Positions 18,323 to 32,436 of a stretch of 64,000 nucleotides of DNA are shown here, piece by piece. The notes beneath the pieces are model-generated. The model saw only the letters and a list, made by a program, of their open reading frames with translations, was not told the DNA's origin and did not search any database. The position numbers and the translations under genes are program-made. Each line of letters opens with the position of its first letter. Positions within the stretch are counted from its first letter, which is position 1. Origin of the DNA: Phoenix dactylifera (Eukaryota; Streptophyta; Magnoliopsida; Arecales; Arecaceae); contig NC_052393.1 of NCBI RefSeq assembly GCF_009389715.1, forward strand, positions 4,898,001 to 4,962,000, written 5' to 3'.

Positions 18323-18888
18323 TGTTGAGGTCGAAGTTCCTCCGACCTCAGATCTTAGCTCCCATCGAACTGAAACAGAAAAAAAAGACTGCGTTTCCAC
18401 AGAAGGTATTGTCCGCTTTGGAGCAGGTAGAAGCCTTCCTCACGGTTTTACCGTTTAAAAGGCACCTCCTGAGGGAAGGGTAATCTAGTCCTTCATTTAA
18501 GGTACAGACCTTTTCGCTATTCAATCGATGTGGGACTAAGTCTGAGACCTTTTATTTCCACAACATCAGCCCTCCAGCAGGAAGGTCAGTGCCGAGGTCA
18601 AGGGTCCCTTCTTGGCGTGCCATTGTTGAGGTCGAAATTCCTCCGACCTCAGATCTTAGCCTCCACAGAACTAGAACAGTAAAAAAGACTATGTTCCTAC
18701 AGAAAGTATTGTCCGTTTTGGAGCAGGTAGAAGCCTTCCTCACGGTTTTGCCCTTTAAAAAGTGCCTCGTGAGGGAAGGGTCAAGGTGCCTCCTGAGGGA
18801 AGGGTAATCGAGCCCTCCATTTAAGATAGACTTTTTCGATATTCAATCAATGTAGGGATTAAGTTTGAGACCCTTTATTCCCACAATA
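18323..18888 (-). mobile_element. TRIM-like LTR pair with a very short centre
   Basis: Two direct repeats, 18323-18565 (243 bp) and 18624-18888 (265 bp), each begin TGTTGAGGTCGAA and end near CCACAACA or CCACAATA. They are separated by only 58 bp. The right copy is longer because of an internal duplication of GTGAGGGAAGGG-type sequence (about 18770-18805). The words GATGTGGGACTAAG near the right ends are the reverse of the AGTCCCACATC motif in the other TRIM-like LTRs here, suggesting a minus orientation. No protein is encoded. A standard primer-binding site was not identified in the centre. Confidence 0.65.
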
Positions 18889-19833
18889 TATGTATATATC
18901 TTAATTGGATGAACAAATAAGAGAAGAGTGACAAGAAACATGGAGTCTTCTGCAGTCCACCTTGGTTGGCCCCTGGGAAATTCAACAGCACGGAAGGCTG
19001 TCCTGGACCAAGCAGCTGATCCTAGCAGAAGCCCGTGATGATGGGGGCGGCGCCATCTTATCTATGAGGAAGAAGCTGGGCTTTACCTCCGGGCCCACTC
19101 GCTCTTATCCCCAACCACCGACTCACCGGCGCGACGTGCGGGCCGATGTCCGTGCCCACGTGTCCATCACGTGCCTCGGTCCCACACATGCCTTTCATCA
19201 ATCATGGAAAATAGCAAACCATCGTACACTTGATTGTATTAAAGGTAAATCTGCTTGCTAAAAAAATATTTTAATTTAAGTTTATTACCTTAATAAAACA
19301 TTAGATCTTAAAACAAGATTTTATTTTTTTATTTGTGCTACAACAAAAATTAGCTTGTGCAGGGCTACGCTAATCTTCTTCGATGTATTATTTCAGTTTT
19401 ATTAGGTATTTTCAATTAGTCCAAAAAAAAATTCAAAAATTTTTTCTTGCATACTAATGTACTTTTAGTTGTCAAAATTTGGCAATTGTTTGTGAGGCTT
19501 CGCCCTGCAATGTGCAGGGGCTCATAAGAATTTCATACATGCGATGATGGAATCCAATGCATCAGGTAACTAGTTTTATAAGAAAAAAATTATCCAGACT
19601 TTTTAGGATATTGAAGTTTGCCTAAGCTCAACTTGGGATATGCAGGACCTGGTGCCTCTGAGCCACAAGGATAAGCACAGATAAATCTATTTTGATGGAC
19701 CAGAAGAAAAATCTATCGAAGTGTGAGAGTCGTTTGGAGGAGGACAGGTTAGAAAGAGATAGATTTGGGGTACTTTTGGCTACCATGCTTATCTTATGAT
19801 TTTGTGTCAACTTTGTTATATTGATGGCTGAAA

Positions 19834-20260
19834 TGTAACAACCCAGGACCTCACCAAAAATAGCTAGCCGGAAGGTATTATTTATGTTCCTTAATTTTGT
19901 ATAAGTACCGAAGATCTACCTAGCGAATAACCGATGTGGGACTAAACACACGCCCGCATGGATCGTCACATACTCCCCCCGTTCAAGCTCTGACGTCTTC
20001 ATTCAAATCCATTCAAATCTAATCACAAATACCACGATCGGTCCGTAGTCAACCTCAATAGATCCATGCTGCAGTGTCCTTTAGTCCACATAAGTTATGG
20101 GCCGGATCCGCTCTGATACCATTTGTAACAACCCAGGACCTCACCCAAAATGGCTAGCCGGAAGGTATTGTTTAGGTTCCTTGATCCTGTATAAGTACCC
20201 AAGATCTATCCAGCGAATAACCAATGTGGGACTAAATACACACCCGCACGGGTCCTCACA
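19834..20260 (-). mobile_element. Complete TRIM retrotransposon, minus orientation
   Basis: Two 137-bp direct repeats (19834-19970 and 20124-20260) begin TGTAACAACCCAGGACC and end CACA on the plus strand. The 153-bp centre begins with TACTCCCCCC, which on the minus strand is a purine tract. It ends with GCTCTGATACCATT, which on the minus strand reads AATGGTATCAGAGC, the usual binding site for initiator methionine tRNA. This gives the order LTR, primer site, purine tract, LTR on the minus strand with no coding capacity, the definition of a TRIM. Flanks TGAAA and TGGAA are a probable, mutated 5-bp target duplication. Confidence 0.85.
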
Positions 20261-29189: not shown

Positions 29190-29194
29190 ACCAA

Positions 29195-32100
29195 TGTGAG
29201 GCCCAATAGTCCCACATCGGAAAGACTCGTTCCAGAGCCTGGGCATATGAGGCGGGTGTCTCCAAATCCTGTAGACGCGTTTTGGGTGGAAAACAAAACC
29301 GGGGAGGGGTGAAGGACACTTGCGTGAAGCCCCAGAACCGGACAATATCTGGCAGGGGAGCCCCGTGTTCCCCCCTCATGTGGCCCCCACGTGGGCACTA
29401 GGTGCCTCACGTGCCTCGCAGAGGCGGGGGCGTGACATTTGGTATCAGAGCCGAGGACGGCTCTTGTCCGATGGTGGGAAGGGTGTGAGGCCCAATAGTC
29501 CCACATCGGAAAGACTCGTTCTAGAGCCTGGGCATATGAGGCGGGTGTCTCCTAATCCTGCAGACGCGTTTTGGGTGGAAAACAAAACCGGAGAGGGGTG
29601 AAGGACGCTTGCGTGAAGCCCTAGAACCGGACAATATCTGGCAGGGGAGCCCCGTGTTCCCCCCTCATGTGGCCCCCACGTGGGCACTAGGTGCCTCACG
29701 TGCCTCGCAGAGGCGGGGGCGTGACATTTGGTATCAGAGCCGAGGACGACTCTTGTCCGATGGTGGGAAGGGTGTGAGGCCCAATAGTCCCACATCGGAA
29801 AGACTCGTTCTAGAGCCTGGGCATATGAGGCGGGTGTCTCCTAATCCTGCAGACGCGTTTTGGGTGGAAAACAAAACCGGGGAGGGGTGAAGGATGCTTG
29901 CGTGAAGCCCCAGAACCGGACAATATCTGGCAGGGGAGCCCCGTGTTCCCCCCTCATGTGGCCTCCACGTGGGCACTAGGTGCCTCACGTGCCTCGCAGA
30001 GGCGGGGGCGTGACATTTGGTATCAGAGCCGAGGACGGCTCTTGTCCGATGGTGGGAAGGGTGTGAGGCCCAATAGTCCCACATCGGAAAGACTCGTTCC
30101 AGAGCCTGGGCATATGAGGCGGGTGTCTCCAAATCCTGTAGACGCGTTTTGGGTGGAAAACAAAACCGGGGAGGGGTGAAGGACACTTGCGTGAAGCCCC
30201 AGAACCGGACAATATCTGGCAGGGGAGCCCCGTGTTCCCCCCTCATGTGGCCCCCACGTGGGCACTAGGTGCCTCACGTGCCTCACAGAGGCGGGGGCGT
30301 GACATTTGGTATCAGAGCCGAGGACGGCTCTTGTCCGATGGTGGGAAGGGTGTGAGGCCCAATAGTCCCACATCGGAAAGACTCGTTCTAGAGCCTGGGC
30401 ATATGAGGCGGGTGTCTCCTAATCCTGCAGACGCGTTTTGGGTGGAAAACAAAACTGGAGAGGGGTGAAGGACGCTTGCGTGAAGCCCTAGAACCGGACA
30501 ATATCTGGCAGGGGAGCCCCGTGTTCCCCCCTCATGTGGCCCCCACGTGGGCACTAGGTGCCTCACGTGCCTCGCAGAGGCGGGGGCGTGACATTTGGTG
30601 TGAGGCCCAATAGTCCCACATCGGAAAGACTCGTTCTAGAGCCTGGGCATATGAGGCGGGTGTCTCCTAATCCTGCAGACGCGTTTTGGGTGGAAAACAA
30701 AACCGGAGAGGGGTGAAGGACGCTTGCGTGAAGCCCTAGAACCGGACAATATCTGGCAGGGGAGCCCCGTGTTCCCCCCTCATGTGGCCCCCACGTGGGC
30801 ACTAGGTGCCTCACGTGCCTCGCAGAGGCGGGGGCGTGACATTTGGTATCAGAGCCGAGGACGACTCTTGTCCAATGGTGGGAAGGGTGTGAGGCCCAAT
30901 AGTCCCACATCGGAAAGACTCGTTCTAGAGCCTGGGCATATGAGGCGGGTGACTCCAAATCCTGCAGACGCGTTTTGGGTGGAAAACAAAACCGGGGAGG
31001 GGTGAAGGACGCTTGCGTGAAGCCCCAGAACCGGACAATATCTGGCAGGGGAGCCCCGTGTTCCCCCCTCATGTGGCCTCCACATGGGCACTAGGTGCCT
31101 CACGTGCCTCGCAGAGGCGGGGGCGTGACATTTGGTATCAGAGCCGAGGACGGCTCTTGTCCGATGGTGGGAAGGGTGTGAGGCCCAATAGTCCCACATC
31201 GGAAAGACTCGTTCCAGAGCCTGGGCATATGAGGCGGGTGTCTCCAAATCCTGTAGACGCGTTTTGGGTGGAAAACAAAACCGGGGAGGGGTGAAGGACG
31301 CTTGCGTGAAGCCCCAGAACCGGACAATATCTGGCAGGGGAGCCCCGTGTTCCCCCCTCATGTGGCCTCCACGTGGGCACTAGGTGCCTCACGTGCCTCG
31401 CAGAGGCGGGGGCGTGACATTTGGTATCAGAGCCGAGGACGACTCTTGTCCGATGGTGGGAAGGGTGTGAGGCCCAATAGTCCCACATCGGAAAGACTCG
31501 TTCTAGAGCCTGGGCATATGAGGCGGGTGACTCCAAATCCTGCAGACGCGTTTTGGGTGGAAAACAAAACCGGGGAGGGGTGAAGGACGCTTGCGTGAAG
31601 CCCCAGAACCGGACAATATCTGGCAGGGGAGCCCCGTGTTCCCCCCTCATGTGGCCTCCACGTGGGCACTAGGTGCCTCACGTGCATATGAGGCGGGTGT
31701 CTCCAAATCCTGCAGACGCGTTTTGGGTGGAAAACAAAACCGGGGAGGGGTGAAGGACGCTTGCGTGAAGCCCCAGAACCGGACAATATCTGGCAGGGGA
31801 GCCCCGTGTTCCCCTCTCATGTGGCCCCTACGTGGGCACTAGGTGCCTCTCGTGCCTCGCAGAGGCGGGGGCGTGACATTTGGTATCAGAGCGGAAGGGT
31901 GTGAGGCCCAATAGTCCCACATCGGAAAGACTCGTTCTAGAGCCTGGGCATATGAGGCGGGTGACTCCAAATCCTGCAGACGCGTTTTGGGTGGAAAACA
32001 AAACCGGGGAGGGGTGAAGGACGCTTGCGTGAAGCCCCAGAACCGGACAATATCTGGCAGGGGAGCCCCGTGTTCCCCCCTCATGTGGCCTCCACGTGGG

Positions 32101-32431
32101 CACTAGGTGCCTCACGTGCCTCGCAGAGGCGGGGGCGTGACATTTGGTATCAGAGCCGAGGACGGCTCTTGTCCGATGGTGGGAAGGGTGTGAGGCCCAA
32201 TAGTCCCACATCGGAAAGACTCGTTCTAGAGCCTGGGCATATGAGGCGGGTGTCTCCTAATCCTGCAGACGCGTTTTGGGTGGAAAACAAAACCGGGGAG
32301 GGGTGAAGGACGCTTGCGTGAAGCCCCAGAACCGGACAATATCTGGCAGGGGAGCCCCGTGTTCCCCCCTCATGTGGCCTCCACGTGGGCACTAGGTGCC
32401 TCACGTGCCTCGCAGAGGCGGGGGCGTGACA
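29195..32431 (+). mobile_element. Tandem array of a miniature LTR (TRIM/SMART-type) element
   Basis: LTR copies start with TGTGAGGCCC at 29195, 29484, 29773, 30062, 30351, 30599, 30888, 31177, 31466, 31900 and 32189; a twelfth copy (about 31685-31878) lacks its first 49 bases. A full LTR is 243 bp, begins TGTGAGG and ends GTGACA. The linker between LTRs is 46 bp (first copy 29438-29483). It starts TTTGGTATCAGAGCC, the methionine-tRNA primer-site word, and ends in the purine tract GGTGGGAAGGG. The period is 289 bp, with 248 bp at the fifth unit. The array is flanked on both sides by ACCAA (29190-29194 and 32432-32436), a perfect 5-bp target duplication. Repeated open frames of about 93 and 170 codons are by-products of the repeat. 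Confidence 0.93.
29438..29483 (+). other. Minimal internal segment: primer-binding site plus purine tract
   Basis: This 46-bp segment between the first two LTRs holds TTTGGTATCAGAGCC at its left end and GGTGGGAAGGG at its right end. These are the positions expected for the minus-strand primer site and the polypurine tract of an LTR element. About 20 bp lie between. Equivalent segments occur after most LTRs in the array; those at about 30594-30598 and 31879-31899 are shortened. Confidence 0.75.
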
Positions 32432-32436
32432 ACCAA

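Follow-up and report, generated by a model that had tools for sequence, protein, structure and literature searches.

A tandem array of twelve LTRs in the date palm genome, which is a tandemly arrayed TRIM (TA-TRIM) and thus of an already established kind, probably originated as one integration of concatenated cDNAs and was afterwards rearranged in place. The array lies in a stretch of 64,000 nucleotides of Phoenix dactylifera (contig NC_052393.1, positions 4,898,001 to 4,962,000; hereafter the window). It has one target duplication, mixed unit classes and joins between LTRs, and its relatives elsewhere in the genome include palindromes with two U5 ends. Concatenation was preferred because growth by unequal exchange leaves the mixed old alleles, the pairs from two sources and the palindromes unexplained; concatenation covers all of these together with the cDNA ends retained at the joins. 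The evidence for this origin is drawn from one genome.

Architecture of the array

The array proper occupies 29195-32431 and is bordered by exact copies of ACCAA at 29190-29194 and 32432-32436, which are flush with its outer ends and form one 5-bp duplication. A first-pass annotation had described twelve 243-bp LTRs of a miniature TRIM-type element alternating about eleven times with a 46-bp internal segment inside this single duplication. The array proved to be real, with these lengths and exact flanks, and the type of element had been recognized correctly; the twelve LTRs were borne out as ten full copies and two fused partial ones. Alternation of LTR and internal was likewise found, in a less regular form than described: from 11 possible internals, 8 are full (46 nt), two persist in part (5 and 21 nt), and one is absent. 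With its 12 LTRs, 8 full internals and ACCAA, the array has the at least three LTRs, at least two internals and one duplication that define a TA-TRIM. Its parts, all on the plus strand, are as follows.

29190..29194, plus strand: 5' target site duplication, ACCAA
29195..29437, plus strand: LTR 1, class A (C39, T78, A124)
29438..29483, plus strand: first internal, 46 nt, with TT, PBS TGGTATCAGAGC (29440-29451) and the purine-rich GGTGGGAAGGG preceding the next LTR
29484..30350, plus strand: units 2-4, LTR classes B, R and A, with a full internal in each
30351..30593, plus strand: LTR 5, class B, with no normal internal behind it
30594..30598, plus strand: near-direct LTR-LTR join, spacer TTTGG (5-nt internal remnant)
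30599..31465, plus strand: units 6-8, LTR classes B, S and A', with a full internal in each
31466..31878, plus strand: LTR 9 (positions 1-220) fused to LTR 10 (positions 49-243), overlap 2 nt
31879..31899, plus strand: internal remnant, 21 nt (25 nt gone)
31900..32431, plus strand: LTR 11 (class S) and LTR 12 (class R) with a full internal between them
32432..32436, plus strand: 3' target site duplication, ACCAA

The LTR reads TGTGAGGCCC...GGGCGTGACA and the internal segment TTTGGTATCAGAGC PBS ... GGTGGGAAGGG. Motifs for the LTR start and the LTR end were each counted 11 times in the array, and the fused pair at about 31684, where LTR 1-220 is joined to LTR 49-243, brings the LTRs to 12. The PBS TGGTATCAGAGC, whose pairing partner we take to be the initiator tRNA-Met, was present in nine exact copies inside the array; ten exact copies, or 11 with at most one mismatch, were counted in the window against 0.25 expected, and chance is therefore excluded. 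Besides the PBS, the 46-nt internal carries a purine-rich 3' end, and protein coding is impossible at such a length. An artefact of assembly is unlikely, since the duplications directly abut the array at either end and the genome matches a long-read assembly.

Unit classes and alleles

The LTRs fall into class A (units 1 and 4, and unit 8 as A'), class B (units 2, 5 and 6), class R (units 3 and 12) and class S (units 7, 9 and 11), with unit 10, a fused remnant, left unclassed as X. Their order is A B R A B, then the TTTGG join, then B S A' S X S R, and differences between classes reach 8 sites. The succession A B R A B suggests that several units were later copied together in place.

That one ordinary two-LTR copy (LiL) inserted and then grew by unequal LTR exchange between sister chromatids or homologues, and was later altered by deletions and mutation, is in our judgement unlikely. 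It draws support from units 1 and 2 and units 4 and 5, which differ by 1 each as a period-3 duplication would have it. The adjacent units, however, are not the most alike, which is what the first-pass annotation had proposed to check by LTR-by-LTR alignment: the lag-1 distance over all 12 units was 4.98 compared with 4.84 in permutations (P 0.58), and 4.13 compared with 4.38 without the fused unit 10 (P 0.32). Lags 3 and 4 gave distances of 4.25 (P 0.17) and 4.02 (P 0.11), and permutation at lags 1-5 revealed no significant similarity of neighbours in the array. Moreover, unequal exchange begins with two identical LTRs and so does not provide classes built of alleles from other loci. Two transversions, at LTR positions 65 and 70, illustrate such alleles; A65 occurs at 11 other locus clusters and T70 at 30, and both are therefore older than the array. 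Since the units mix alleles found at other loci, growth solely from one element with identical LTRs is unlikely. Comparison of nearest neighbours inside and outside the array was left out as proof because old copies lie near the common ancestor anyway.

Mixed units within an old duplication would also be given if cDNA had entered a resident copy by homologous recombination, as happens with the Ty elements of yeast, enlarging that copy without a new duplication. This route is very improbable for the array, for it does not give the flush two-U5 palindromes and the end-to-end LiL-LiL inserts described below.

A third alternative places the multimer at reverse transcription, either from read-through RNA of an array or by template switching between co-packaged RNAs, with the multi-unit cDNA inserted once. 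A single duplication and mixed units are equally expected of it, and T192, which is present on the R, S and A' backgrounds and hence indicates exchange between units, could be a product of recombination during reverse transcription. This allele is nearly private to the array, being shared with one LTR of L078 by alignment column and with no other sampled LTR by sequence context. For Cassandra, template switching has been proposed and multi-unit transcripts reported in the part of that literature available, and the discussion of PMC11899658, as far as available, proposes tandem transcripts. Against it, the unit order of the window was found at no other locus in the fetched sample, and the GG and TT at LTR-LTR joins are not predicted by it alone; we rate it as rather improbable. 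A unit order common to two loci had also been considered as proof of transposition of whole arrays, and the fetched loci provided no such case for the window.

The family in the genome

A search with the LTR over the genome of 773,078,369 bases in 2391 contigs scored 40 out of 1103 first-look candidates and gave at least 155 matches; forty loci (L021-L060, the array of the window being L060) were fetched. Exact, flush 5-bp duplications were found at 25 of 42 match clusters, and the other 17 had none. In the control for these duplications, which leaves out one of the 42 clusters, situated where its stretch ends, flank pairs from the same locus matched over 5 bp in 25 of 41 cases and those from different loci in 7 of 1640. 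The 25 insertions comprised 10 LiL copies, 2 solo LTRs (L038 and L043), 4 regular arrays of at least three LTRs, 4 insertions with LTRs joined to each other (L027, L032, L041 and L060) and 5 with inverted parts (L021, L029, L034, L050 and L056). The genome search that the first-pass annotation had suggested for solo LTRs and two-LTR copies was thus fruitful for both, and the solo LTRs with exact duplications are in keeping with unequal exchange. Copies with two LTRs of 243 bp, such as L025, are 532 bp long.

Arrays as long as that of the window were found at L021, L029 and L034. At L034, 8 of 11 LTRs are mutually identical and the rest are 1, 4 and 7 away, and L036 is nearly uniform in like manner; the two loci count in favour of unequal exchange, and the near-uniformity of L034 fits growth in place. 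An array at L067 (2205-3883) lies within an exact duplication of TATCC, and its left end is internal position 6, not an LTR start.

LTR-LTR joins and retained ends

Joins were scanned for with an exact pattern that allowed 0-20 nt between an LTR end and an LTR start. There were 36 near-direct joins compared with none in the reversed control, and the spacer ended in GG in every one (TTTGG 8, TTGG 7, TTAGG 4, GG 4, TTTTGG 2 and eleven singles). Thirty of the 36 were fetched, of which 26 had an LTR of the array family on both sides: TTTGG 6, TTGG 6, TTAGG 4, GG 3, TTTTGG 2, and TGG, GTGGG, TTTGCGG, TTTTTTTGG and TTTGGTATCGGG once each. Exact duplications surround 9 of the 26 (L032, L041, L060, L063, L065, L066, L067, L070 and L078). 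These 26 joins are not all independent, because flanks are shared (L061 with L086; L075 with L081 and L084) and several more stem from a composite of the array family and a second TRIM family. The four joins that were dropped (L064, L068, L074 and L076) have something other than an LTR of the array family upstream; there too the spacer before TGTGAGG ends in GG, and perhaps the U3 cDNA end of the family was joined to another element.

The element has TT separating the LTR from the PBS, and GG separating the purine tract from the LTR that follows. The linear cDNA expected from this is GG-LTR...LTR-TT, and a plain join of two ends would read TTGG. GG by itself says little, because any deletion that keeps at least 2 nt of the 3' end of the internal also ends in GG. 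Simple deletions of the first 46-nt internal of the window that leave at most 20 nt give 231 products, among which TTGG occurs once, TTTGG three times, GG once and TTAGG never; for the TTTGG join of the window, deletion at GG microhomology can thus be an alternative source (3 of 231 products). At 9 of the 26 joins the spacer is beyond any simple deletion of that internal (TTAGG 4, TTTTGG 2 and three singles), and one spacer can become another by point mutation.

The TT was kept at all three kinds of U5 end that are joined into the interior of an LTR, one at L021 and the others at two LTR positions of L029, one of them present twice. At the position-78 join of L029, the second T is not derived from the LTR, since 11 intact sites within the locus carry C. 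A further join at L029, with a 37-nt insert of a partial LTR copy, reads TTTGCC and so keeps TT or TTT, and at L056 one U5 end lacks TT and gives way to unrelated sequence over 49 nt. The aberrant L029 junction that is present twice is also what unequal exchange would leave. As for end-joined cDNA of the 2-LTR type, TT and GG were found at most joins and CCGG at the single head-to-head join, with deletion possible for TTTGG.

Two-element and palindromic insertions

Inserts of two LiL elements within one exact duplication were found at L027 (one inner LTR truncated), L032, L063, L065, L066 and L078, and one of three elements at L041. L063 consists of two distinguishable elements end to end, LiL-TTTGG-LiL within GTCCT; the two LTRs of an element are 2 and 3 differences apart, LTRs of different elements 10-13, and for 8 of the 9 fixed differences both alleles occur at other loci. 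The pattern of L065 (ATATA) is the same and older, with 7 and 9 differences within elements, 10-17 between, and both alleles elsewhere for 7 of 7 fixed differences. No fixed differences separate the two elements of L066 or those of L032, and at L078 divergence is about equal throughout; these three loci are without two clean LTR pairs, for which age or mixing may be the reason.

Head-to-head palindromes with U5 at both outer ends and one exact duplication were found at L029 (ATATT), L034 (TGATT), L050 (ATCAC) and L088 (ATCAT). They count against unequal exchange because crossover between direct LTRs cannot make them; nor can it yield the CCGG join. That join had been predicted for head-to-head cDNAs before the search, and L088 was found as its only site (n=1), with CACA-CC to the left of the centre and GG-TGTG to the right; the LTR left of the centre lacks positions 22-213. 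A looser head-to-head pattern was uninformative, with 4 sites against 6 in the reversed control. The predicted tail-to-tail join, TTAA, gave no true case in an exact-pattern search; at L089, the only hit, the upstream end belongs to another element.

The LTRs of L050 pair crosswise, unlike those of two ordinary cDNAs. As we read the sequences, one and the same short stretch shared by PPT and LTR marks the head-to-head centres of both L034 and L056. Fold-back of the strand, or switching, would place them there, and this is a point in favour of multimers made at reverse transcription. Among the palindromes found, none has U3 at both outer ends, which suggests that either integration or the fold-back of strands at the PPT end is biased.

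A proposed sequence of events

The preferred reading, concatenation of cDNAs followed by a single integration, would proceed as follows. Several linear TRIM cDNAs, copied from different members of the family, would be joined before integration, some of them end to end with the 2 nt past each LTR kept (TT at the U5 end and GG at the U3 end), and others through recombination, with one LTR left in common. Integrase supplied in trans would then insert the whole concatemer, generating one 5-bp duplication. For the array of the window, both the joining before integration and the enzymes involved are what we infer from these traces. Later, in place, several units would have been duplicated together (A B R A B), LTR 9 would have fused with LTR 10, internals would have suffered deletions and units would have exchanged sequence; such later exchange is likely in view of A B R A B, the duplicated L029 junction and the near-uniform L034. 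Of the two origins named in the first-pass annotation, unequal exchange and a multimeric cDNA, joins and palindromes across the family favour the multimeric cDNA as the start, with rearrangement in place as a later contribution. For the family as a whole, we see an even chance that its arrays and palindromes are integrated fossils of cDNA concatemers, joined in either orientation and inserted in one concerted integration, with GG-LTR...LTR-TT ends preserved at joins, and that this is a regular route by which TRIMs spread.

Other small elements and chimeras

A copy of a second TRIM family was observed on the minus strand of the window at 19834-20260, with LTRs of about 140 bp (TGTGAGGACCCGTGCGGG...GTTGTTACA), AA before the PBS, and flanks TTCCA and TTTCA that differ by one mismatch. 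L048, L057, L059, L062, L069, L071 and L075 are chimeras in which the LTR end of this second family is joined at the PBS to the internal and LTR of the array family. Several of them have flanking sequence in common, and composites of the two TRIM families appear to have multiplied. At L023, L036, L055, L039 and L089, LTR-like ends of other elements (...GGGGCGTGACA) adjoin the PBS or LTR of the array family; these are possible relatives of an autonomous partner. L023, L048, L055, L057 and L059 had been candidates for integrated one-LTR cDNA intermediates starting at the PBS, and were rejected on account of the LTR or LTR-like end of another family upstream. At about 18500-18890, also on the minus strand of the window, another repeat is present in two copies, which begin TGTGGGAATAAAGG and TGTGGAAATAAAAGG and of which one has the motif CCCACATCG; it is perhaps a third small LTR element.

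Comparison with known systems

The TA-TRIMs of Gao et al. (2016; PMC4717578) are described, in the part of that paper available, as alternating LTRs and internals inside one duplication; a figure legend has two inverted TRIMs within one duplication, and the date palm row of the genome table gives 9, 777 and 13,358. Those of maize mostly have three LTRs (63 of 93), compared with 12 in the window, and no analysis of junction ends was found in the same part of the paper. Wukong of maize, according to the available text of PMC4528315, is a TRIM of 532 bp with 230-bp LTRs, 5-bp duplications and arrays of 3-7 LTRs. The likeness to the date palm family is one of description: the two-LTR copy is 532 bp in both, whereas the LTR is 230 bp in one and 243 bp in the other, and the internal 72 bp as opposed to 46 bp. 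The LTRs of Wukong usually have one orientation and recombination between elements was proposed; unequal exchange is the published view for Wukong and for the neighbouring Echinococcus TRIMs in the accounts as available.

For Cassandra, the accessible part of PMC7215508 reports PCR evidence for arrays with as many as 13 LTRs and 12 internals and offers both routes of origin; no differences between units are reported there, whereas units of the window array differ. Cassandra LTRs carry 5S-like sequence. None was found in the window, where no Rfam match was obtained at the gathering threshold; the box pattern of PMC7215508 had no exact match, and 89 matches with at most 2 mismatches against 101 expected by chance. 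The first-pass annotation had called an array so long uncommon, which holds in part: published arrays reach 7 LTRs in Wukong and 13 in Cassandra, and 13 of the 25 sampled insertions with exact duplications were multimeric, a share that is biased because only the loci ranked highest by similarity were sampled.

The tandem LTR-RT of rice (PMC11899658), in the part available, also form LTR-sharing arrays for which a single insertion was inferred and the origin left open; these elements are of full size, gypsy reportedly forming more of the arrays, whereas the element of the window is miniature. SMART, a very small LTR element of 292 bp in the available description (PMC3281118), compares by description with the 532-bp two-LTR copy of date palm. 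In the literature as available, no analysis of cDNA ends retained at LTR joins was found, and the choice between complex insertion and later recombination for tandem LTR elements was called open in 2025 (PMC11899658, available part). On that open mechanism the array provides useful evidence, and the short, well-resolved arrays, end-to-end pairs, single-duplication palindromes and cDNA-end signatures of its family make the question of origin testable from sequence alone.
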